A DNA stretch of 32,318 nucleotides from Melioribacteraceae bacterium (GTDB lineage Bacteria; Bacteroidota; Ignavibacteria; Ignavibacteriales; Melioribacteraceae), in assembly GCA_028282005.1 (NCBI GenBank), contig JANQIV010000100.1:1-32318 (forward strand), in the 5' to 3' direction. Positions 6,485 to 24,943 of this stretch are shown one piece after another. A program made the position numbers and the translations under genes. Under the pieces are notes generated by a model that was given only the letters and a program-made list of their open reading frames with translations, was not told the DNA's origin and made no database searches. How positions within the stretch are numbered: position 1 is the stretch's first letter; every line of letters begins with the position of its first letter.

Positions 6485-9400
6485 TTAATTTTTTAAAGTG
6501 ACAATAAATTTTGAGCCTTTACCTTTAATACTTTCTACTCTAATTTTTGCGTCATTTATTTCACAATATTTTTTCACAAGAAATAATCCCAATCCATTAC
6601 CTTCGTATTTTCTTGTATAACCTTGTTCTTCCTGACTAAAGGCTTGAAAAAGTTGTGATAAATATTCTTCGGAAATTCCAATACCAGTATCTTCAACTTC
6701 TACTTCAATTTTCGAGCTGGAAATTTTGACGAGGTTTATTGAAATTTTACCCTTCTGGGTGTATTTAATTGCATTATCAATTAGGTTTGCAAATATTTGA
6801 TTAATTGAATAAATATCTCCAAAAACAATATGATCCCCACCTTCATGATTTATTTCTAGAGACAAATTTTTACTTTCTGCCAACGGTTTATATTCAATTA
6901 TTAATTTAAAAAAGACTTCTTCAACAAGGTCAAACTTTTCTTTACTTGCTTCATAAGATTGTGTTTGCAGTTCAGATACATTGATCAATAAATCAATTGT
7001 TCTGATTATCCGCATACCCGCGTTCTGAATTCCATTAAAACACGATGATAATTCTTCATTTACCTTTTGTTCTAAATCGCTGATAAGTAAAGAAGAGAAG
7101 CTAATCATAGAATTTATTGGAGTTCTAATTTCATGAGAAACTTGTGCGAGAAATTCAGATTTAAGTTTATCTGCTTTCTCAGCTTTATCTTTTGCTTCAA
7201 TTAATTTTTGTTCTGAAATTTTTTGGTGAGTTATATCTTCAATTGCACCTTCAATAATCAATTTTTTATCTGGCAATGTTGTAAGCTTTGCAAATTCTCT
7301 TACATAAATAATCTCTCCGGTTTTTCGTTTATATTTTGCTTCGTACCCGTTTACAGATTTCATGTCAAACAAAATCTCTTTAAATTCATTCCTATCTTTT
7401 TCATTTAAGTAAAAGTCCTTGCCAACTTTATAATTTTGAATTTCTTTAAATGAATTATAACCGAATATAGTTAACCAAGCTTGGTTACAAAGTATAACTG
7501 TTCCGTCCAATGTTGTTTGGTAAATTCCGAACGCTGAATTTTCGAATAGGTTCCGGAATTTTTCTTCACTTTGTTTAATTGCTGCAGCATATTTTTTATT
7601 CTCTGCAATTTGTTCTTCAATTTCTACAGTTCTTTCCTGTACTTCATCTTCAAGCATAGCAGCATATTTCTTTTGGTTTTGATATGAAGTAATAATGTAA
7701 ATAAAGACACTGCCCAAAATCGAAATAACTGCTAAAAACCAAAACTTTAGATAATAAGGTTTGTCAATACTGAATGAAGTAATATATGTTGAATCACTAA
7801 CTAATCCATTGGGGTTTTGAACCTGCATTTTGAAATAATAACTACCCCACGATAAATTTGACAATCTCACATTGTTTTCTTTTGTCATAAATCTATCAAT
7901 CAGAAATTCCTGATCATTGTAGAGTTCAATTAAATATTCGTTATCTTTCTCGTTAAGGAAACTTAATCCCCTAAACTCAACTATTAAACCTGCAGTAGAA
8001 TAGGGGAAATCATTATTATGTTTATAGCAAGTGTGACTATCATTCAAATCACGAATACATAAAATCTTTCCTTTTGGTGGTGTAGACGAGAGATTATCAA
8101 AATCGGGATCGTAAATTGACAAGCCTCCTTCGGTGCCAATCAAAAGCTTATTGTCATTGGTTTTAGCTAATGCTCCCCGGTTTATCTCGGTTCCGGCTAA
8201 ACCGTCATTTGTTGTATATTTTCTTAACATATGACCATCATATTTATAAATACCGATATCCGTGCCGAACCAGATATCATTTTCATGACCGTTTTCTATG
8301 ATAAAAATTGGGGTATTGATTTTTGTTTTACCAATACTGAATTCAGCTAATGAGTCACCTTGAACTCTGTAAAGCCCTTTGCCTGAGCCAACCAATATTC
8401 CAAATTCCGGAGTTTCATGAATAGCATAAATATTATTAGCAGTTTCAAAACTTGACTTGTAATTTTTTACAACCTTGTTGTCATATATAAAAATCCCTTT
8501 ATTTGATGTACAGAAGGCCATTTTACCGTTTAAAAGCTTCTTAACTTTTCTGTAAGAATTTTGAGGAATATCTTCAATCAAATTGTAATTATCGTTTCCA
8601 ATATTGTATTCGTATGCCCCTTCTCTGGTAGCTAGCCAAATAATGTTATCTTCTTTCAAAGCGGAAAAGAATACAAAGTTTTTCTCATTAAAATTTTTCC
8701 ACTCGATTGAAAAATCTTTTTTTAATTTCCCGAATCCTTTATAATAATCTGTTACCCAAACATTGTTGTTATTATCCTTAATGAAATTCCAAATTCTTGC
8801 TACATTATTGTCGGTTTCTCTATCGGTTAGATATCTATAGCTTTTGAGTATTTTACTATCTTTGTTAAAAGTTGCTATAACGCCTTCCTGCCCCAATAAA
8901 ATATTACCGTTTCCTAAATCTAAAACTGAAGTAATCTCATTAGCATTTAGCCCTTCAGATTTTGAGATAATCTCAAACGGAGTTTGCCTAATTTTTACTA
9001 TTCCTCTGTTTGTCGTCATCCAAATATTGTTTTCATAGTCAAACTCAATTGAATTTCTTGCCTGAAGTTGCAGATCGGTTTTGAGTATTACTTCTCTGAC
9101 TTTTGTTGCATCTTTTTTAAGATGGTAGGTTATGTATTCATTCCCGAAATAAATATTGTCGTGCTTATCTGATTTGATATAATAAAATTTATAAGAAGTA
9201 TAGAATTCCGGGAAAGTAATATTCTCGTTTACCGAAATAAACTGCTCCCCATCAAAATATCCAAGCCAGTCTCTACCCAAAAGCCATAGTAAATTCTTGT
9301 TATCCGATGTCAATTCATTTGAAGCATAATTTATAAGTAAACCCGGTAAGCTTTTATTAATCTCATGAAGAAATAAAATTGATTTGCCGTCAAACTTTGC

Positions 9401-14459: not shown

Positions 14460-15827
14460 ATGATTAGATTTATTCCTCTTGGCGGAGCAGAAGAAATTGG
14501 CGCAAGTTGTTATTATCTTAACTTATTCGGAACTGGAATATTACTCGATTCCGGAATTCATCCCCAAAAAGTTGGAAAAGATGCAATTCCGGATTTTGAT
14601 ATACTAAAAGATGAACCACTTGATTTTGTTTTAATTTCCCATGCCCACCAGGATCACATAGGATCACTTCCATATTTAATCAAAAGATATCCGCATGTAA
14701 AAGTTTATACCACGCCTCAAACAGTACAAATAGCAGACATCACTTTACACAATGCCGTAAGAATATTGAAAAGTAGATTGACTGAAGAAGATGGTATTGA
14801 ATCCTATAATCATCAAGAGATAGATTTGCTGTTAAGATTTGTTAATGACTTCAGTTACAATGAAACATTTAATTTGCGTGGATTAAAACATAAAATTCAT
14901 GAAGATATAAAAATCACCTTTTTTGAAGCGGGCCACATTTTAGGTGCGGCATCAATACTGATTGAAATAGATAATAAAAGGATATTTTATACCGGCGATA
15001 TAAATTTGGGCACACAGTCAATAATGAATGGAGCTGATTTACCAGATGGAAAAATTGATATTTTATTAACTGAAACAACTTACGGCTCTACCGATTCTAA
15101 AAAATTAGGAACATGGCACTCAGAAAAGTTGAGATTTGCTAAAGAAGCCAATAAAATACTCGCAAAGGGAGGATCAATACTAATACCGGTTTTTGCACTT
15201 GGAAAGACCCAAGAGATTCTTTCAGTAATTGATGATTTGATTGAATCCGGAAAAATGACCGATTCATTTATTTATTCGGGCGGTGTTAGCAAACTCATTT
15301 CGAATGTTTATGATGATAACAGATATTTGGTAAAGAGAAATAAAAAGAACTTTGAGTTGAAAAATGTTCCTCAGATCAATTTTATGAATATAACCGACTT
15401 AAATTTTTTTAGAAGGAAACCCGGAATAGTTTTAGCTTCAAGCGGAATGATGCTAAAAGATACAAGTTCATATAAATTAGCAAAATATTGGCTTAACCAG
15501 GTTAATTTTGCTATTTATGTTGTCGGTTATATGGATGTTGATACTCCGGGATATATAATTGAAAATGCAAAAAAGGATGATAAAATTATCTTTGATGATC
15601 CTTTGAAGCCTACCAAAGTTAAATGTGATATAAATAGATTTTATTTCACGGCACATTCAAAAAGAGAAGAATTATTAGGTATAATTAAAAAGCTTAAGCC
15701 GCAAAAAGTAGTATTGCTTCACGGAGAAAAAGAAAGTATTGATTGGATGGGGTCACTGGTATTAAGCAAAAAATTATCCGAGAAACTTTACGCCGCTGAA
15801 ACTAATAAAGAAATTATTTTAGAATAA
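14460..15827 (+). CDS. MBL-fold beta-CASP nuclease-like protein (RNA-specificity MBL)
   Basis: This 455-residue protein has a metallo-beta-lactamase fold with an inserted beta-CASP domain, as in RNase J/CPSF-73-type nucleases. Zinc-binding motifs are visible: H61-A-H63-Q-D65-H66, GHILGAAS, and the YTGDINLG Asp. TETTYGS leads into the beta-CASP region. The SSGMM, VGYMDVDTPG and final AHSKREELLGI and LLHGE segments are the C-terminal motifs of RNA-processing MBL enzymes. It lacks the extra C-terminal domain of RNase J and is closer in length to the stand-alone exonuclease/RNA-specificity type. Substrate is not determined. A structured element follows its stop codon. Confidence 0.88.
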   Translation: MIRFIPLGGAEEIGASCYYLNLFGTGILLDSGIHPQKVGKDAIPDFDILKDEPLDFVLISHAHQDHIGSLPYLIKRYPHVKVYTTPQTVQIADITLHNAVRILKSRLTEEDGIESYNHQEIDLLLRFVNDFSYNETFNLRGLKHKIHEDIKITFFEAGHILGAASILIEIDNKRIFYTGDINLGTQSIMNGADLPDGKIDILLTETTYGSTDSKKLGTWHSEKLRFAKEANKILAKGGSILIPVFALGKTQEILSVIDDLIESGKMTDSFIYSGGVSKLISNVYDDNRYLVKRNKKNFELKNVPQINFMNITDLNFFRRKPGIVLASSGMMLKDTSSYKLAKYWLNQVNFAIYVVGYMDVDTPGYIIENAKKDDKIIFDDPLKPTKVKCDINRFYFTAHSKREELLGIIKKLKPQKVVLLHGEKESIDWMGSLVLSKKLSEKLYAAETNKEIILE

Positions 15828-16100: not shown

Positions 16101-18515
16101 TTATTGATTTCTAAGAGAAGTTGCAGGGTTTGCTCGGGCAGCTCTAACTGATTGATAAGAAACTGTTAACAGAGCAATGGCTAAGGCAGCAATCCCAGAA
16201 ATTATAAATGGTGTGAATCCGATTGGTGTCCTGTAATAAAAACCTTCTAACCATAGGCTTACACCGTAATAACTTAATGGCCATGCAATTACATTTGCAA
16301 TAAGAACCCATTTCAAGAAATCCTTTGCAAGCAAATACACAATAGAAGTTTCGCCTGAACCAAGTACTTTTCTTATTGCTATTTCTGATCTTTTTTGCTC
16401 AACAGAATAAGAAACCAAGCCAAGTAAGCCAAGACATCCGATCAAAATTGCAAAGCCAGAAAAATAAGCAAGATTATTTGCAAAATTTCTATCATTATTA
16501 AATTGCTGGTCAAACAAAGCGTCAAGAAACTGGATATTCAAATTATTTTGAGGATACACTTCCTCAAATATTCTTGCAATCTCATCCATAGTTTCTTCAA
16601 TTGAACCACCTGCTAATCTTGCAGTAGTCATAAATGTATTATTTGTATTTAACTGGAAAAACAATGGTTCAACACCCTGGCGGGCATTTGAAAAATGGAA
16701 GTCTTTCACAATTCCAACCACTTGTTTAGAAGTCAAGGAACCATCAATTTCAACCATTTCGAGTCTTTTACCTAAAGCATTATCCCATCCAGCCATTCTT
16801 GCAGCAGTTTCATTTACTAATACAGCATTTGCAGTATCCGAAGCAAAATCTATAGAAAAACTTCTTCCATTCGCCATTTCAATTTCCATAACGTCAAAGA
16901 AATTTTCGTCAATTGCTAACTGCTGGAACATTTGACTTTCTTCTCTGGTAGCTCCTTCCGGAATCACTTCATACCTAATTAAATCACCACCAAAAACTCC
17001 GGCAGACCTTCCTGCTTTAATTACTCCCGGTAAAGCTTCAACTCTGTTTCTAAACAAATCGCTTTGATTATTTGGCGGAGCAAAAAGTCTTACTACCTGG
17101 TCACGATTGTAACCAAGGTCAAGCGATTTCAAATATTCAATTTGATCATGAATTAACATGACGCCAACAATTAAAGAAATTGAAACAGCAAATTGGCAAA
17201 GCACAAGTACTCTTCTCACCAAAGTACCGATGCTGCTTTTTTGGAAATCGCCTTTTAGTACTGTTACAGGTCTGAAGGATGAAAGAATCATTGCCGGATA
17301 AAGACCTGCGGCTATTCCGATTAAAATTGCAATACCTATAAAAGTTACAAGCAGCAATGGATTGGCAAGGAAGTCTATTACTAAAGTTTTACCTAAAATA
17401 TTTTGCAAATAAGGTACACTTACCTGAACTATAATCAACGATAATACCATTGCAATTAATGTTACGAAAACAGACTCACCCAAGAATTGTTGAATTAACA
17501 TTGACTTGGTTGATCCGATCACTTTTCTCATTCCAACTTCTCGTGCACGTTTTGATGCCCTGGCACTTGAAAGATTAATGAAATTTATTGCCGCTACAAA
17601 AATTATCATAACTCCTATAACTGCGAGAGCATAAACAACTGTTGCATCATTGGACCCTTGATTACCTCCATCATATCTGTGTTCGGAAGAACCTAAATGA
17701 ACATCCAATAATGGTTGAAGTTTAGTTCTGTAAATCTCAGGCAGTCCATGAGAAAATGACATCTCAGACATTTTATCAGCAACTAAATCCGGATCGGCAC
17801 CCGGTGTTAAAATTAAATAAGCTGATAGCATTAAATTTTCCCAAGAATCCCACCATTGAGGATTTGTTTCTATTCTGAGCGGGATAATAAATTGGAATTG
17901 AATATGAGAATTTGTCGGAGGCTGTTCGATAATGCCAATTACGTAAGGATCAATTTGGTTGTTTCCCGGACCGGTAAACTGCAGAGTTAAATTCTTTCCG
18001 ATGGGATCTTCATCAGGAAATAACAATTCCGCTGCATCAGTTGTAATTAAAATTCCGTTCGGATCAATCAGTGCTTTTTCCCTGTCGCCGCGGATTATAT
18101 TAAAATTGAAAATGTTCAGAAATTCTTTCTCCGCGATAAAACCCCTTAAGTTAAAGGCGTTTTCAGCACTTAGTTCTCCCGGTGGAACATTGCCCGGTGC
18201 GACAAATGGCTGACCCATTGTAAAAACTCTTGCGGCTTCCACCACCTCAGGAATTGATTCTTTTGATGCCGGGATTAATGGTCCGGCAGTAATTGAATAG
18301 AGCATTTCACCCGTTCTGGATGTTTCAGTAGATAAAACTCGATATATATTTTCCGGATTGTTGTGAAAATTATCGAAAGTTAAATCGTCAACTACATAGA
18401 AAGCAATAATTATCGATATGGATAAACCCAAGGTTAATCCGAAAATATTGATAAATGAATATGCTTTCTGGCGCTTAATGTTGCGGATTGCAACAAGTAT
18501 GAAATTCTTTAGCAT
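16101..18515 (-). CDS. FtsX/MacB-like ABC transporter permease (second of tandem pair)
   Basis: This product of about 804 residues is an ABC-type permease of the large Bacteroidota form, with two MacB-PCD/FtsX units. It has an N-terminal helix (about 20-40), a periplasmic domain (about 45-280), a membrane block with the RAREVGMRKVIGS motif (about 285-440), a second periplasmic domain (about 460-680), and a final membrane block opening with SEIAIRKVLGS. The ATG at 18515 matches the paralogue's MLKNF start; an in-frame GTG one codon upstream is possible. It is alignable end to end with the gene at 18748-21174. No ATP-binding subunit or membrane-fusion protein is encoded nearby. Substrate is unknown; lipoprotein, peptide or antimicrobial export are family options. 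Confidence 0.88.
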   Translation of the reverse strand: MLKNFILVAIRNIKRQKAYSFINIFGLTLGLSISIIIAFYVVDDLTFDNFHNNPENIYRVLSTETSRTGEMLYSITAGPLIPASKESIPEVVEAARVFTMGQPFVAPGNVPPGELSAENAFNLRGFIAEKEFLNIFNFNIIRGDREKALIDPNGILITTDAAELLFPDEDPIGKNLTLQFTGPGNNQIDPYVIGIIEQPPTNSHIQFQFIIPLRIETNPQWWDSWENLMLSAYLILTPGADPDLVADKMSEMSFSHGLPEIYRTKLQPLLDVHLGSSEHRYDGGNQGSNDATVVYALAVIGVMIIFVAAINFINLSSARASKRAREVGMRKVIGSTKSMLIQQFLGESVFVTLIAMVLSLIIVQVSVPYLQNILGKTLVIDFLANPLLLVTFIGIAILIGIAAGLYPAMILSSFRPVTVLKGDFQKSSIGTLVRRVLVLCQFAVSISLIVGVMLIHDQIEYLKSLDLGYNRDQVVRLFAPPNNQSDLFRNRVEALPGVIKAGRSAGVFGGDLIRYEVIPEGATREESQMFQQLAIDENFFDVMEIEMANGRSFSIDFASDTANAVLVNETAARMAGWDNALGKRLEMVEIDGSLTSKQVVGIVKDFHFSNARQGVEPLFFQLNTNNTFMTTARLAGGSIEETMDEIARIFEEVYPQNNLNIQFLDALFDQQFNNDRNFANNLAYFSGFAILIGCLGLLGLVSYSVEQKRSEIAIRKVLGSGETSIVYLLAKDFLKWVLIANVIAWPLSYYGVSLWLEGFYYRTPIGFTPFIISGIAALAIALLTVSYQSVRAARANPATSLRNQ

Positions 18516-18690
18516 CACTCCCCCGCTTCGCTAATGAATTGATTTGGTTATTTTAGTTACAAATGAGAGACGCACAGAAAACGATTTTGTTGCATTAAAG
18601 GTTCTGAGGTCTTTTATTTTGGTATAAATTGGACTTTGGGAGGTATGAACTAGTAGTAAAGAAGCATAAAAAAGAAATAAATTTGAAATA

Positions 18691-18747: not shown

Positions 18748-21174
18748 TCATTCACTTCTTAGTAATTCAACAGGGTTTAATCTTGCTGCTCTAATAGTCT
18801 GAAAAGATAAAGTTAGAAGAGCAATTATCACAGCCAATGACCCGGCAGTAATAAATGGAAGAAAACCTATAGAAGCTTTGTGTACAAATTCGTCAAGCCA
18901 TAATCCGGTCACAAAGAAACTAGCCGGCCATGCAATAATATTTGACATTAACACCCATCTTAGAAATCCTTTTGAAAGTAAAGTGACAATCGATTTTTCG
19001 TTTGATCCTAAAACTTTTCTGACTGCAATTTCTTTTTTCTTTTGTTCAACAGAGTATGCCACCAGTCCGATTAAACCCAGACAAGCAATAAAAATTGCAA
19101 CGCCGGAAAAATATGCTATGTTAGTTGCAAATTCTTTGTCACTATCGTATTGGTTATCAAAAACCTCATCAAAAAATTGGGGACTAAAACTTCTGTTTGG
19201 ATATACTTCAGAATAAGCCGTTTCAATTTTTTCTAAAGTCTCAGGAATTCTTCCACCGGCTAATTTTATCAGAAAATTTGCGGCATATTGAGAATTAAGT
19301 TGGTACATAAATGGTTGTATTTGCTGACGGGAATTCTCAAAGTGAAAATCTTTTACTACTCCTATAATTCTTTTAGAAGGCAAAATCCCATTTTCTTCAA
19401 GATCTTTAAAATCTAATTTTTTCCCCAAAGGATTATCCCAACCCAATTTTTTTGCAGCTGTTTCGTTGATCAGAATCGAATTAGCAGTATCCCCGGGAAA
19501 ACCTTCTGTAAATTGTCTTCCGCTTATGATGTTAATTTCTAATGTCTCAAAGAATGTGTTGTCAATAGAGATTGATTTCATAGGAAATATGTCATCAGAA
19601 GAAGCACCTTCAGGTATCATATTATACCCATTAAAGGATGAACCTATTAAATCATTGGACCTTCCAACCGATTTAACATCTGCTATGTTCAACAATTTGC
19701 TTTTTAACAATTCGTTAGCGTTTGCGTCATAAGCAGCAGTTAAAGTTACTACTTGATCACGGTTATATCCCATATCTATTGTCTTTAAATAATCAATTTG
19801 ATTAAGAATAATAATTACGGCAGAGGTAAGAGCAATTGTTACTGAAAACTGAAAGAGCACTAAAGTCTTTCTTATTACTTCCCCAATTCTACTATGTGTA
19901 AAGCTACCTTTTAATACGGTAACAGGTTTAAATGAAGAAAGTATCAATGCCGGGTATATTCCTGCTAAAATACCGATTACAATTGCTATGCTTATTACAC
20001 TAAATAAAATTAACTGATTGCCTAAGAAATCAATTTGAAGTGTTTTGCCTAAATAATCATTTAAGCCAGGAGATATTAATTGAACAATAATTAGTGCAGC
20101 AGTTGTTGCAATTAAAGTTAAAAAAACCGATTCTCCTAAAAATTGTGTTATTAACATCGTTCTATTCGAACCGATAACTTTTCTCATACCAACTTCACGT
20201 GCTCTTTTAGAAGCTCTTGCGCTGGAGAGGTTAATAAAATTTATTGCTGCAACTGATATTATTAAGAATCCAATTATGGCTAATGTATAAACAATTGTTT
20301 TGTCATTTCTTCCGTGGTTAGCCCAATCATGTCGCAAATCGGTTGATCCCAAATGTACGTCTAATAATGGCTGAAGCTTGACGATTTCTGTTTGGGGCAC
20401 ATTGTTCGAATGAGCCATGTTAGTTAATTTTTGCTCGACACTTTTGATATCACTTCCTTCAGTTAATTTTACATAACCCTGTAAAGAATAAGCTATCCAT
20501 TGATTCCACCACACAGGGTTGTTCTCAGCAATAAACGGAATAATAAAATCGTATTGAATATGAGAGTTTAATGGGGGGGGTTCTACAATTCCAATCACAA
20601 ATAGATTTTGTTGGCCATTACCATTACTCCCTCCTAAATGTTGTAATGTTATTGCTTTGCCGATCGGATTCTCTCCAGGATACAATAATTCTGCTGCTTG
20701 TGGTGTTATTAAAATTCCGTTAGGTGTTATTAGCGCATTTTCTCTATCACCCTCTAAAATTTTAAAAGAAAACACTTCGAAAAAATTTGGTTCAGTCAAA
20801 AAACCTCTTAGTCTAATGGAATTATCGGCACTCAATTCGTCTACCGGAATTCTTTCGGGAGCAGTAAACATAAAACCGCCAAATCCAACAGTACGAGTTG
20901 AAGTTATTACTTCGGGGATATTTTCTTTAGCAGCCGGCAAAAGGGGGCCACTTGTAATGGCATTTGTGGCAGATGTTTTTTTGTTGTGGGTGAGTACACG
21001 GTAAATATTTTCCGCTTCTGGATGAATTCTATCGTAAGATAGATCATCAATTACATATACTGCTATAACTAATGTAATTGCAATACCAACTGTTAAGCCT
21101 AAAATGTTTATAAATGAGTATGATTTTTGACGTTTAATATTGCGGACTGCGACAAGTAAGAAATTCTTTAGCAT
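18748..21174 (-). CDS. FtsX/MacB-like ABC transporter permease (first of tandem pair)
   Basis: This 808-residue permease has the same architecture as its neighbour: N-terminal helix (MLKNFLLVAVRNIKRQKSYS start), a first periplasmic MacB-PCD domain, an FtsX block with RAREVGMRKVIGS, a second periplasmic domain, and a final FtsX block with KEIAVRKVLGS. GGAG precedes the ATG by a few bases. The pair looks like a tandem duplication that has since diverged. The coding strand holds a run of eight C (20573-20580) at Pro199-Pro201, a possible slippage site. A terminator separates the two genes, and the ATPase partner is absent from the window. Confidence 0.88.
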   Translation of the reverse strand: MLKNFLLVAVRNIKRQKSYSFINILGLTVGIAITLVIAVYVIDDLSYDRIHPEAENIYRVLTHNKKTSATNAITSGPLLPAAKENIPEVITSTRTVGFGGFMFTAPERIPVDELSADNSIRLRGFLTEPNFFEVFSFKILEGDRENALITPNGILITPQAAELLYPGENPIGKAITLQHLGGSNGNGQQNLFVIGIVEPPPLNSHIQYDFIIPFIAENNPVWWNQWIAYSLQGYVKLTEGSDIKSVEQKLTNMAHSNNVPQTEIVKLQPLLDVHLGSTDLRHDWANHGRNDKTIVYTLAIIGFLIISVAAINFINLSSARASKRAREVGMRKVIGSNRTMLITQFLGESVFLTLIATTAALIIVQLISPGLNDYLGKTLQIDFLGNQLILFSVISIAIVIGILAGIYPALILSSFKPVTVLKGSFTHSRIGEVIRKTLVLFQFSVTIALTSAVIIILNQIDYLKTIDMGYNRDQVVTLTAAYDANANELLKSKLLNIADVKSVGRSNDLIGSSFNGYNMIPEGASSDDIFPMKSISIDNTFFETLEINIISGRQFTEGFPGDTANSILINETAAKKLGWDNPLGKKLDFKDLEENGILPSKRIIGVVKDFHFENSRQQIQPFMYQLNSQYAANFLIKLAGGRIPETLEKIETAYSEVYPNRSFSPQFFDEVFDNQYDSDKEFATNIAYFSGVAIFIACLGLIGLVAYSVEQKKKEIAVRKVLGSNEKSIVTLLSKGFLRWVLMSNIIAWPASFFVTGLWLDEFVHKASIGFLPFITAGSLAVIIALLTLSFQTIRAARLNPVELLRSE

Positions 21175-21364: not shown

Positions 21365-22528
21365 TTAAAACTCGACTGAAACTTGAGTTCCAAAAATATT
21401 ATCGTCCGGTTCAGGATTAGCATCAGTGTCATTAATTCTGTAAGAAATTTTCCACAATGTACGCGGACTTAATTTATAACCGAACGCAAATTCAAAAGCT
21501 TTGTGGTCCTCATCCCAATTTTGGTTTCTGTTTGTGAGAGGGTTAAAAATATTGTTGAAATTCAGCATTTCATATTTGCCGGCAACGTAAGCTCCAACAA
21601 GAAAGGGGAGATCAATTTTAAGCGAAGCAAATAATGAGTTAACATTCAAGTCGACTTCGTCAGCTAATAAGCGGGAATTATCTTGAGAAATAACCGGTGC
21701 CTTCCAGGTGTTGTAAATGTATTCAAAGATAAAATCGTAATACATGTAATTGATTCTGAGGTCACCGCCAAAAGCAGTTTGCTTGTATTTATCGATGTCA
21801 AAGTTTTCGTTAACCGGATCTTCTTCAATGAATGCTCCTGTTGAAAAAGACGCACCAAGATTAAGCCACGGTTTCGGTTCAAAAGCAACTCTGCCTATAA
21901 ATCCCGGCTCATTGTTTAATTCAAGGTCAGTTCCATAATTTGAAAGGGGACCGTTTGTAATGGCTAAGTCGTATTGAAATTGCCGATCGAAAAAAGAACC
22001 AAAAGCTTTGACTCCGCTGTAATAAGTTCCGTGGTATGCAATTTCTAAACCGGGATCGGGTTCCCATTTAGCGGGATTAAAAAAACCCCTTTTCCTGGAA
22101 ACATTCATATAATAAACATGGCTCAACGGGAAGGATATAAAAGGGTTATCCGGATTGTGCTGAAGTTCTTTGAATTTCCCGAAAGGAGTCAAAATTCTTC
22201 CGGCCTCCACGTTAATATCTCTGTCGAAAAGATTAACAAAGATTATTGATATCTGATAAATTCTTAACGGACTTAATTTTATGTTTTTGATTGTGTTTGC
22301 TTCAATTTTTGACGAGAAATAAATTTTGTCTGCTTCAATTTCTGTATCTAAAAATAATTGAAGCTTACCTGGGAAAATGTTGAAGTTTTCGTTTGGCAGT
22401 TCATTTATTAATTCACTGCTGTCATCACCCCCTTTTTTAATTTCAAAAGTATAAATCCCGTTCCATAAAATTTGAGAATAAACATTTGTGAAAGTAATTA
22501 ACAAAAGGATGAAAATTGTTTTTTTCAT
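21365..22528 (-). CDS. Outer-membrane beta-barrel (porin-like) protein
   Basis: This 387-residue protein has a signal peptide (about 1-18, ending VYSQ) and then alternating amphipathic strands rich in aromatic residues. Examples are the KIYFSSKIEAN, LEIAYHGTYYSGVKAF, GDLRINYMYYDFIFEYIYN and AFEFAFGYKLSPRTLWKISYRI stretches. It ends in phenylalanine (VSVEF), the usual barrel-insertion signal. A segment containing EAGRILTPFGKF resembles phosphate/porin-type barrels in which a loop follows a GR-x-x-P-F-G motif. It starts 10 bases after the adenylate cyclase stop, so it is the third gene of that operon. The substrate is unknown. Confidence 0.75.
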   Translation of the reverse strand: MKKTIFILLLITFTNVYSQILWNGIYTFEIKKGGDDSSELINELPNENFNIFPGKLQLFLDTEIEADKIYFSSKIEANTIKNIKLSPLRIYQISIIFVNLFDRDINVEAGRILTPFGKFKELQHNPDNPFISFPLSHVYYMNVSRKRGFFNPAKWEPDPGLEIAYHGTYYSGVKAFGSFFDRQFQYDLAITNGPLSNYGTDLELNNEPGFIGRVAFEPKPWLNLGASFSTGAFIEEDPVNENFDIDKYKQTAFGGDLRINYMYYDFIFEYIYNTWKAPVISQDNSRLLADEVDLNVNSLFASLKIDLPFLVGAYVAGKYEMLNFNNIFNPLTNRNQNWDEDHKAFEFAFGYKLSPRTLWKISYRINDTDANPEPDDNIFGTQVSVEF

Positions 22529-22538
22529 TATCTCTCCC

Positions 22539-24263
22539 TTAAGAGTAAATTACGTCATACACTTGAACTGGTTTGCTTATTCCTTTTACGGAGATCGGTT
22601 CTAGTGAATTTGCTTTGACTTTAGTTTTCATCAATCTGTAAGAAGATTCTGACAGTAGAATTTGCCCTGCTTTAGCACTGTTGCAGAGCCTCGCTCCGAG
22701 ATTGACATTGCTTCCCAGCACTGTGTAGTCAAGCCTTTCTTCGCTTCCCATATTTCCCATGAGTACCATTCCTGTGTTTATGCCGATACCGATACGAATA
22801 TTATGGCTTATTTGCTCATTTAAATTTTGCATTTCTTTTTGAATTTCGATTGCGCATAAAACCGAGTTATCAACCATGTTTTCACCTTCGAAGACAGCCA
22901 CCAGTTCATCACCGACATATTTGTCAATTGCTCCACCGTATTTAACGACAAGCTTTGCCTGTTTACTCAAGCACATATTCAGCATGCTGATCACTTCTTC
23001 GGGATCAACTTTTTCGGAGAATGCTGTAAATCCGCGTATGTCCGAAAAGAAGACAGTTACATTTTTTCTTTCTCCGCCAAGCTTTACGCCGTCTTTGTCA
23101 ATTTGCTTAATCATGTTAAGAGTTGATGTGGATACAAACTTTTCCATGTGGAAACGTTCTCGCAACCCTGCCGTCATTTCATTAAATGCTTTAGCTAAAG
23201 TGCCGATCTCATCAGTTGTATTGGGGTTGATTGAAAAATTATAATCCCCCGAACCTATTTTGTGTGCACCTTCTACCAATTTTTTTACCGGATCAGTAAC
23301 ACCTTTTGCAACTAAAAAGCTAATAGCGAAAGTTATTAAGACGGCAACTAATCCGATGAATAAAATAAATTGCTGTAAATCCCGGAGCGGCTCAAGAGCA
23401 GAATCAAGTGAAATCGCGATTGCATACATTACATCAGAAGATGATTGTCCTTCCGATAAAAAAGAGAAGACTACCAGGTATCGTTCATCTTTGAAGATAT
23501 GTTCCATAGAATTTGTTCTGAGGTTGGTCGCTTTTGCTTCTTGAATTTTATCATTATAAACAAAAGTAGATTTAGTGAGATCAACTGCACTTTCTTCATC
23601 GAGAGTAGTTACCAGTAAACGGTGGTTAAGAAAAAAACTAATCTCGCTTTTTGTATCCTCTTTTAGTTGTTCAACTTCTTTATATTTTATTTTGAAACCG
23701 AGAGTGAGAGTTCCAAGAATATCATTGCGAGATAATACAGGTACAGATACAACTCGATAAACATCATTTCCCTCAATATAAATTGATGCATTATCAGGAT
23801 CGTTACCTTCAAGTGCTGAAGCTATGAAAGGCAGTTGTGAGAAGTTTTCTCCGAATTTATCCGTTTGATCAGTGCGAACAATGAGCTCACCTCTTGAGTT
23901 TGTGATAAAGATAATATCGGTGTTTACTAGTTCCAAAAATTCGTTCGCATTAAATAATACTGTTTGGTGAACTTCTTCGTTAATCCCAAATCTTGCTAAA
24001 TCAAGATTAGCTTTGAATTGCGGTTGTTCCGAAATCAAAATACAGGACTCTAATAAGTGATTAAATTGGATCTCTTCAATTCTGTCGAATATGTTTTTTG
24101 TTCTTTCAAAACTAGCCTGAATTTGGTTTCTGGTTTGTACCTCTATCCTATTGCCGATAAACCAAAGTACCCCGGCAAATATTACAACTATTAACCCGCC
24201 AACACCAATAAGCAGTTTGTTTCTTAATCCGAAACGAAGACTGTAAGAAAAATTGATTTTCAT
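22539..24263 (-). CDS. Membrane class III adenylate cyclase with periplasmic sensor and HAMP
   Basis: This 574-residue receptor cyclase has helices near 17-38 and 288-312, a periplasmic Cache-like sensor between them, a HAMP domain (about 313-365), and a class III catalytic domain (about 380-572). The two metal-binding Asp residues are D408 (FSDIRGF) and D452 (GDELVAVF). The purine-specifying pair is K448 and T514 (DYTVLG), which fits adenylate cyclase of the IIIb type (Thr in place of Asp). Asn and Arg of the VNLGAR helix, needed for catalysis, are present. All key residues are therefore intact. It overlaps the cupredoxin-like gene by 4 bases, and the porin-like gene follows. The signal sensed is unknown. 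Confidence 0.92.
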   Translation of the reverse strand: MKINFSYSLRFGLRNKLLIGVGGLIVVIFAGVLWFIGNRIEVQTRNQIQASFERTKNIFDRIEEIQFNHLLESCILISEQPQFKANLDLARFGINEEVHQTVLFNANEFLELVNTDIIFITNSRGELIVRTDQTDKFGENFSQLPFIASALEGNDPDNASIYIEGNDVYRVVSVPVLSRNDILGTLTLGFKIKYKEVEQLKEDTKSEISFFLNHRLLVTTLDEESAVDLTKSTFVYNDKIQEAKATNLRTNSMEHIFKDERYLVVFSFLSEGQSSSDVMYAIAISLDSALEPLRDLQQFILFIGLVAVLITFAISFLVAKGVTDPVKKLVEGAHKIGSGDYNFSINPNTTDEIGTLAKAFNEMTAGLRERFHMEKFVSTSTLNMIKQIDKDGVKLGGERKNVTVFFSDIRGFTAFSEKVDPEEVISMLNMCLSKQAKLVVKYGGAIDKYVGDELVAVFEGENMVDNSVLCAIEIQKEMQNLNEQISHNIRIGIGINTGMVLMGNMGSEERLDYTVLGSNVNLGARLCNSAKAGQILLSESSYRLMKTKVKANSLEPISVKGISKPVQVYDVIYS

Positions 24264-24943
24264 TTTAATTCAAAATCTATGACTTTTGTTTCACCTGCTG
24301 TTATAGTAATTTCAACCGGAGTTGCTTCTGTGCTATGATGCCAAGGATTAACTATATATTTGCCCGGAGGTAAATCTAGAATTTCATAATTACCGTTTTC
24401 ATCTGCCGTAGTAAAGTGGGGATTCTCAAGTACAACTATAAAAGCACTCATGTGTGAGTGAATATCGCAGAACACGCGTACTACTCCAGGATTATCAAAC
24501 GTTTGGGGTACGCTTTCGCCCTGAGGCCTTCTTCCAATATTAAACGGTTTCGGATCAGAAAGTGAGAAAACATTGTGATAAATTTTATCTTCATTTTTGA
24601 TGTCCACTGTTGTCCCTTTCAGAATTGGCAGAACTTTTGGGATGAATTTTGCATCTTTCTGTGTTAGTACCGGTTTTTCAACTCCATAAGAATATTCTTT
24701 TTTGGATTCAACTTCTTCAAGATAAATAATTACATTTTCCGCTTCATTTTTAGATGTTGTCGAAGAATTTTGTGATCGATTATGTTTATAACTACTGCGG
24801 TGTCTCCTTGAAGATTTTACAACTTCTTTTATTTCTATTTTTCCTTTTATAATTCCGTTGTTCTGCGCTTTTAAGTTTTCGTTTTCAGGAATAAGCAAAA
24901 CTGATACTAAAAGAATAATCAGAAAAATTTTAGCTTTTGACAT
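24260..24943 (-). CDS. Secreted cupredoxin-like protein with carboxypeptidase-regulatory-like domain
   Basis: This 227-residue exported protein has a signal peptide (about 1-27) and a basic/Ser-rich stretch at about 43-65. A cupredoxin-like domain follows (about 68-173), then a short CarboxypepD_reg-like beta-sandwich (about 177-227) around YEILDLPPGKY. The candidate type 1 copper ligands are H123 (YHNVF), C159, H162 or H164, and M165 (CDIHSHM). Proteins of this layout are often labelled methylamine-utilisation-like. It is the first gene of an operon with the adenylate cyclase (4-base overlap) and the barrel protein. GAGGAT precedes the ATG. A periplasmic redox or copper-sensing partner for the cyclase is possible but inferred. 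Confidence 0.8.
   Translation of the reverse strand: MSKAKIFLIILLVSVLLIPENENLKAQNNGIIKGKIEIKEVVKSSRRHRSSYKHNRSQNSSTTSKNEAENVIIYLEEVESKKEYSYGVEKPVLTQKDAKFIPKVLPILKGTTVDIKNEDKIYHNVFSLSDPKPFNIGRRPQGESVPQTFDNPGVVRVFCDIHSHMSAFIVVLENPHFTTADENGNYEILDLPPGKYIVNPWHHSTEATPVEITITAGETKVIDFELK

Follow-up and report, generated by a model that had tools for sequence, protein, structure and literature searches.

Class III adenylate cyclases of the Cache/CHASE-HAMP type combine a periplasmic sensor, a HAMP domain, and a class III catalytic domain. Some transmembrane receptors are read via a soluble periplasmic partner protein that carries the signal, as in LuxP-LuxQ and TorT-TorS, in which the partners have sugar-binding-protein folds. 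Blue copper proteins of the amicyanin/plastocyanin type are built on the cupredoxin fold, and C-x2-H-x2-M is the ligand loop of the amicyanin type. Cyc2 proteins are fused cytochrome-porins of iron oxidation, defined by the motif A-x-P-x-F-A-R-[QK]-[TY] ahead of CxxCH (PMC8406198). The RegBA pair of A. ferrooxidans, a redox-responsive two-component system near the respiratory genes of iron oxidation, adjoins aa3-oxidase biogenesis genes, and RegB has been proposed to read the quinone pool (PMC2754497).

The locus described here lies in a window of 32,318 nucleotides (the whole stretch of DNA that was analysed; Melioribacteraceae bacterium, contig JANQIV010000100.1) and consists of three genes (Table 1). 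Its cyclase shares the domain architecture of the Cache/CHASE-HAMP enzymes, but has a fixed blue copper protein and an outer-membrane barrel as partners, and its type of sensor is also found on kinases and HD-GYP proteins. The cupredoxin has the fold and the ligand loop in common with amicyanin and plastocyanin; however, it has a CarboxypepD_reg domain added at its C-terminus and neighbours a signalling receptor instead of methylamine dehydrogenase or photosystem genes. As in LuxP-LuxQ and TorT-TorS, a soluble periplasmic protein is proposed to carry the signal, although the partner here would be a redox-active copper protein. Proteins with the motif of Cyc2 fused cytochrome-porins lie next to kin of the window cupredoxin, a histidine kinase also being present at five such loci, whereas the window barrel lacks a heme motif and is partnered by a cyclase. 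For RegBA, no cupredoxin-linked periplasmic sensor has been proposed (PMC2754497). The original prediction knew of no described system of this kind, and no published description of a cupredoxin/cyclase/barrel module was found in the open-access literature either. The reading preferred here, to which a probability of about 50% is assigned, is that a redox or copper-loading signal reaches, by way of the blue copper protein, a receptor whose output is exchangeable and in this case would be cAMP.

Table 1. Predicted features of the three-gene locus, in window positions
Feature	Position	Strand	Size or basis
Cupredoxin gene	24943-24260	-	227 aa; first in operon
Predicted secreted cupredoxin with C-terminal carboxypeptidase-regulatory-like (transthyretin-like) domain	24260..24943	-	Pfam, alignment, predicted fold
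Overlap of cyclase start and cupredoxin end	24260-24263		4 bases
Class III cyclase gene	24263-22539	-	574 aa
Predicted class III adenylate cyclase of the membrane; periplasmic double-Cache-like sensor between two TM segments, then HAMP and catalytic domain	22539..24263	-	
Intergenic stretch, cyclase to barrel	22529..22538		10 bases
Barrel gene	22528-21365	-	387 aa
Predicted outer-membrane beta-barrel, porin-like fold, without heme motif	21365..22528	-	predicted structure

The overlap and the gap given in the original prediction match the coordinates of the open reading frames, and all three frames are real genes, as many homologues of each share this arrangement. The same-strand flanking genes are located about 190 and 215 bases from the trio and are unrelated to it, with an NHL/SMP-30-like protein bearing a Por secretion tail upstream and FtsX/MacB permeases downstream. 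The latter form a tandem of related genes directly after the module, at window positions 16101-18518 (805 aa) and 18748-21174 (808 aa). A scan of flanking genes identified neither a copper pump nor a chaperone or copper regulator.

The cupredoxin matches the Copper-bind family at its Pfam cut-off, and its C-terminus falls just under the cut-off for CarboxypepD_reg. The predicted structure (pLDDT 84) has the cupredoxin fold of type 1 (blue) copper proteins, superposing on amicyanin, plastocyanin, and the cupredoxin domain of NirK with Z scores of 12-13 over 82-93 residues; for amicyanin 4p5r, the values are Z 12.9, 85 residues, and 1.8 A. The ligand pattern H123-N-V ... C159-x2-H162-x2-M165 presents the His-Cys-His-Met ligands in the order and spacing required for type 1 copper proteins, and none of the four residues varies, either among 50 relatives or among 29 divergent ones from signalling and respiratory contexts. 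The original prediction had named H123, C159, H162/H164, and M165 as a full type 1 site, which is supported for the set with H162; H164 is ruled out as a copper ligand, being present in 47 of the 50 relatives and lost in many divergent sequences. The protein is predicted to bind copper at a type 1 site.

In the cyclase, the HAMP domain spans residues 318-369 and the class III catalytic domain residues 400-569, with a Guanylate_cyc Pfam match of 1.2e-25 and CyaB (3r5g) as the nearest solved catalytic domain. Every key class III residue had been reported in this enzyme, and all six are indeed there and invariant in 13 relatives: in this family, D408 and D452 hold the metal, K448 and T514 select adenine, and N521 and R525 act in the transition state. 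Because of the Lys/Thr pair, cAMP is the likely product. The whole genome holds five class III cyclase domains, and the CRP-family or cNMP-binding proteins raised by the original prediction are present in it, with 9 matches above the Pfam cut-off. As for the sensor, dCache_3 (PF14827) has no Pfam sequence match in the window cyclase itself, while it is matched in a close relative of 44% identity (L102, E 1.2e-8); of 30 relatives, 14 match it. Judged by sequence, the periplasmic sensor is probably related to dCache_3. No Cys, His, or Met is conserved in the sensor domain, which argues against direct copper binding by this domain, and the sensor therefore probably reads the cupredoxin instead of the metal directly.

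The third gene had been called an outer-membrane barrel, and the structural model agrees with moderate confidence (pLDDT 67), giving a porin-like barrel of 14 strands compared with 16 in the porin, with low confidence at residues 12-47, 64-84, and 120-167. The nearest solved folds are OprP/OprO (for OprP, Z is 20.6 across 272 residues); no family match above the Pfam cut-off and no solved relative by sequence were found. The protein may act as a pore. A CxxCH heme motif is absent from this barrel and from its 21 aligned relatives, which rules out a Cyc2 fused cytochrome-porin; there is a weak profile similarity to the Cyc2-type porins (hhalign probability 66%, E 5.6e-5). A relationship to DUF3034 (PF11231) was likewise rejected, at an hhalign probability of 0.4% against window-type barrels. 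In one genome the barrel gene is tandemly duplicated (G149:C34:12732-13925 and 14575-15750).

Whether the trio stays together in related genomes had been set beforehand as one point on which the original prediction could fail, and the module withstood this check. Among 395 genomes of the window's phylum, 41 full-length cyclase relatives were recovered from 36 genomes; a window-type barrel adjoins all of them, and the cupredoxin also adjoins 39 of the 41. The other two are in G316, where the start of the cyclase is only about 33 bases away from a contig end, and in G324, where no cupredoxin was detected beside the barrel-linked cyclase. Seen from the barrel, the cupredoxin lies within 3 kb on the same strand in 42 of 45 cases. 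The genes occur in two orders, cupredoxin-cyclase-barrel and barrel-cupredoxin-cyclase, and the flanking genes vary from locus to locus. The grouping of the trio is not due to chance. Across 17 loci of the phylum, tree distances gave Spearman coefficients of 0.93 for cupredoxin/sensor, 0.79 for cupredoxin/barrel, and 0.90 for sensor/barrel, correlated trees being expected for any co-inherited operon. A ferritin-like protein (Ferritin_2), not present in the window, recurs beside the module in two families (L105 10504-11067, L111 3340-3951, and L116 10833-11390).

A search with the cupredoxin in GTDB genomes returned 48 loci, mostly from Acidobacteriota, and the barrel, the cupredoxin, and a homologous sensor are together in 42 of them. 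Four of the remaining six are interrupted by contig ends (L049, L065, L071, and L072). At a few loci (L048 and L050), the barrel was undetected. The receptors at these loci have other outputs: nine of the ten scanned are histidine kinases (HisKA + HATPase_c) and the tenth, at L048, is HD-GYP; at L027 the receptor is followed by an NtrC-type regulator. Similarly, within the window's phylum, one locus has a kinase with a receiver domain (L107), and at two others (L128 and L129) a HisKA_2 kinase replaces the cyclase while the cupredoxin, sensor, and barrel are kept; in the cupredoxin tree, these two are nested within the cyclase group. The original prediction should thus be widened to one periplasmic front end with an exchangeable output, cAMP being only one of several. 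Two Acidobacteriota-type modules from records of other taxa, L026 (titled Bifidobacterium breve) and L067 (Cyanobacteria), are nested in the Acidobacteriota tree and are probably mis-assigned contigs in those assemblies.

A further combination is found in Burkholderiales and on Novosphingobium plasmids, where the cupredoxin is directly followed by a dCache_3-HAMP-GGDEF-EAL receptor, usually in the company of DUF3034 and a truncated hemoglobin. DUF3034 is a candidate outer-membrane component of this variant; since it is unrelated to the window barrel by profile, the GGDEF-EAL set is a parallel arrangement and not the same trio. Neither the annotated plasmid loci nor the scanned neighbours include methylamine dehydrogenase (mau) genes, and the label 'methylamine utilization protein' in those loci is only an automatic product name. 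At five loci of Caballeronia and Novosphingobium plasmids (L122, L124, L142, L143, and L145), DUF3034 and a truncated hemoglobin of group 1 accompany the cupredoxin and its GGDEF-EAL receptor, hinting that O2 or NO may be part of the signal there. On plasmid pSBC1_4 of Caballeronia sp. SBC1 (L126), the receptor gene, next to an intact cupredoxin, is only a cache fragment (7407-7823) and seems to be a decayed copy.

Members of the cupredoxin family elsewhere keep respiratory company. They adjoin genes for cytochrome c, COX1/COX3, and alternative-complex-III-like proteins, and alphaproteobacterial kin adjoin SCO and cbb3 oxidase genes. At five loci (L108, L113, L114, L119, and L133), two of which belong to the window's own family, the cupredoxin is next to or near a protein of about 440 aa with one N-terminal CxxCH; the exact Cyc2 motif is found in four of these proteins, and the fifth has G in place of the first A. 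A histidine kinase is also present at all five loci, and an NtrC-type regulator at three. In a further family, f26, many genomes encode Cyc2-type proteins no more than 10 kb from the cupredoxin. Shared clusters of Cyc2-type genes and the cupredoxin family were also noted at L146-L150 (G163, G066, G395, G220, and G136), in family f26, which has small genomes, and in G136 (f24), several with 8-heme and 1-heme cytochromes c; such clusters may represent a chain for iron oxidation or electron uptake in which a copper protein is the partner. In the cupredoxin tree, the respiratory and Cyc2-linked members are interleaved and stand apart from the window's group, by a weak split (63/78).

In the preferred reading, the three genes would encode one envelope-spanning signalling unit, in which whatever determines the signal would cross the outer membrane through the barrel as a pore, and the secreted amicyanin-type blue copper protein would serve as the periplasmic reporter, with a redox state (or copper loading) that depends on passage or reactions at the envelope. 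The dCache-type domain would read the cupredoxin, probably by direct protein contact, and the HAMP domain would relay the reading to the class III cyclase, raising or lowering cAMP for CRP-type regulators; the cNMP-binding proteins of the genome could act downstream. Relatives would use this periplasmic front end to drive a histidine kinase with an NtrC-type regulator, or HD-GYP. We infer both the contact between cupredoxin and sensor and the nature of the signal. The simplest reading makes the cupredoxin the reporter for the dCache receptor, because it stays as partner when one output is exchanged for another, and because the sensor has no conserved metal-binding or redox residue of its own. 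A more specific form, considered less likely than not, is that envelope electron flow is read: an outer-membrane conduit or pore and the blue copper protein, both recruited from electron transfer of the Cyc2 or respiratory type, would report the redox state to the dCache receptor, with the output exchanged among cAMP, two-component signalling, and cyclic-di-GMP.

The invariant copper ligands and the porin-like barrel would also suit a sensor of copper supply, in which copper would enter via the barrel and be bound by the cupredoxin, whose holo and apo forms the sensor would distinguish; the SCO and cbb3 oxidase genes near the alphaproteobacterial kin point the same way. This explanation is nevertheless considered unlikely: the scanned flanks hold none of the copper-handling genes named above, and a complete type 1 site is suited to electron transfer, with kin that accompany electron carriers and Cyc2-type porins. 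Redox state is tentatively favoured over copper supply as the signal, because the complete site and the respiratory kin both indicate electron transfer. The same respiratory associations can be turned differently. If a small molecule entered via the barrel and bound the dCache domain, the cupredoxin would be a co-regulated electron carrier outside signal reception, in keeping with the porin fold, with the same-family cupredoxins that adjoin oxidases elsewhere, and with the small ligands that dCache domains, as a family, usually bind. However, the operon contains no enzyme or oxidase in need of a carrier, and the cupredoxin remains with the sensor across changes of output, so this explanation is regarded as rather improbable. 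That the three genes are merely co-transcribed, with separate functions, is very improbable; operon neighbours, as is generally known, need not interact, but the same set is kept across two gene orders, two phyla, and several outputs while its flanks change.

The trio with its exchangeable output points to an undescribed means of reporting the copper or redox state of the cell envelope. If the preferred reading is true, a blue copper electron carrier would be the signal-bearing partner of transmembrane receptors, and a single periplasmic front end would be wired to cAMP, phosphorelay, and cyclic-di-GMP. It would also account for a protein family that at present goes under the labels 'methylamine utilization protein' and 'carboxypeptidase regulatory-like', and would offer a testable route for bacterial sensing of extracellular redox conditions or copper. 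Moreover, it would provide a regulatory link to the Cyc2-type iron-oxidation conduits, the control of which is poorly known.
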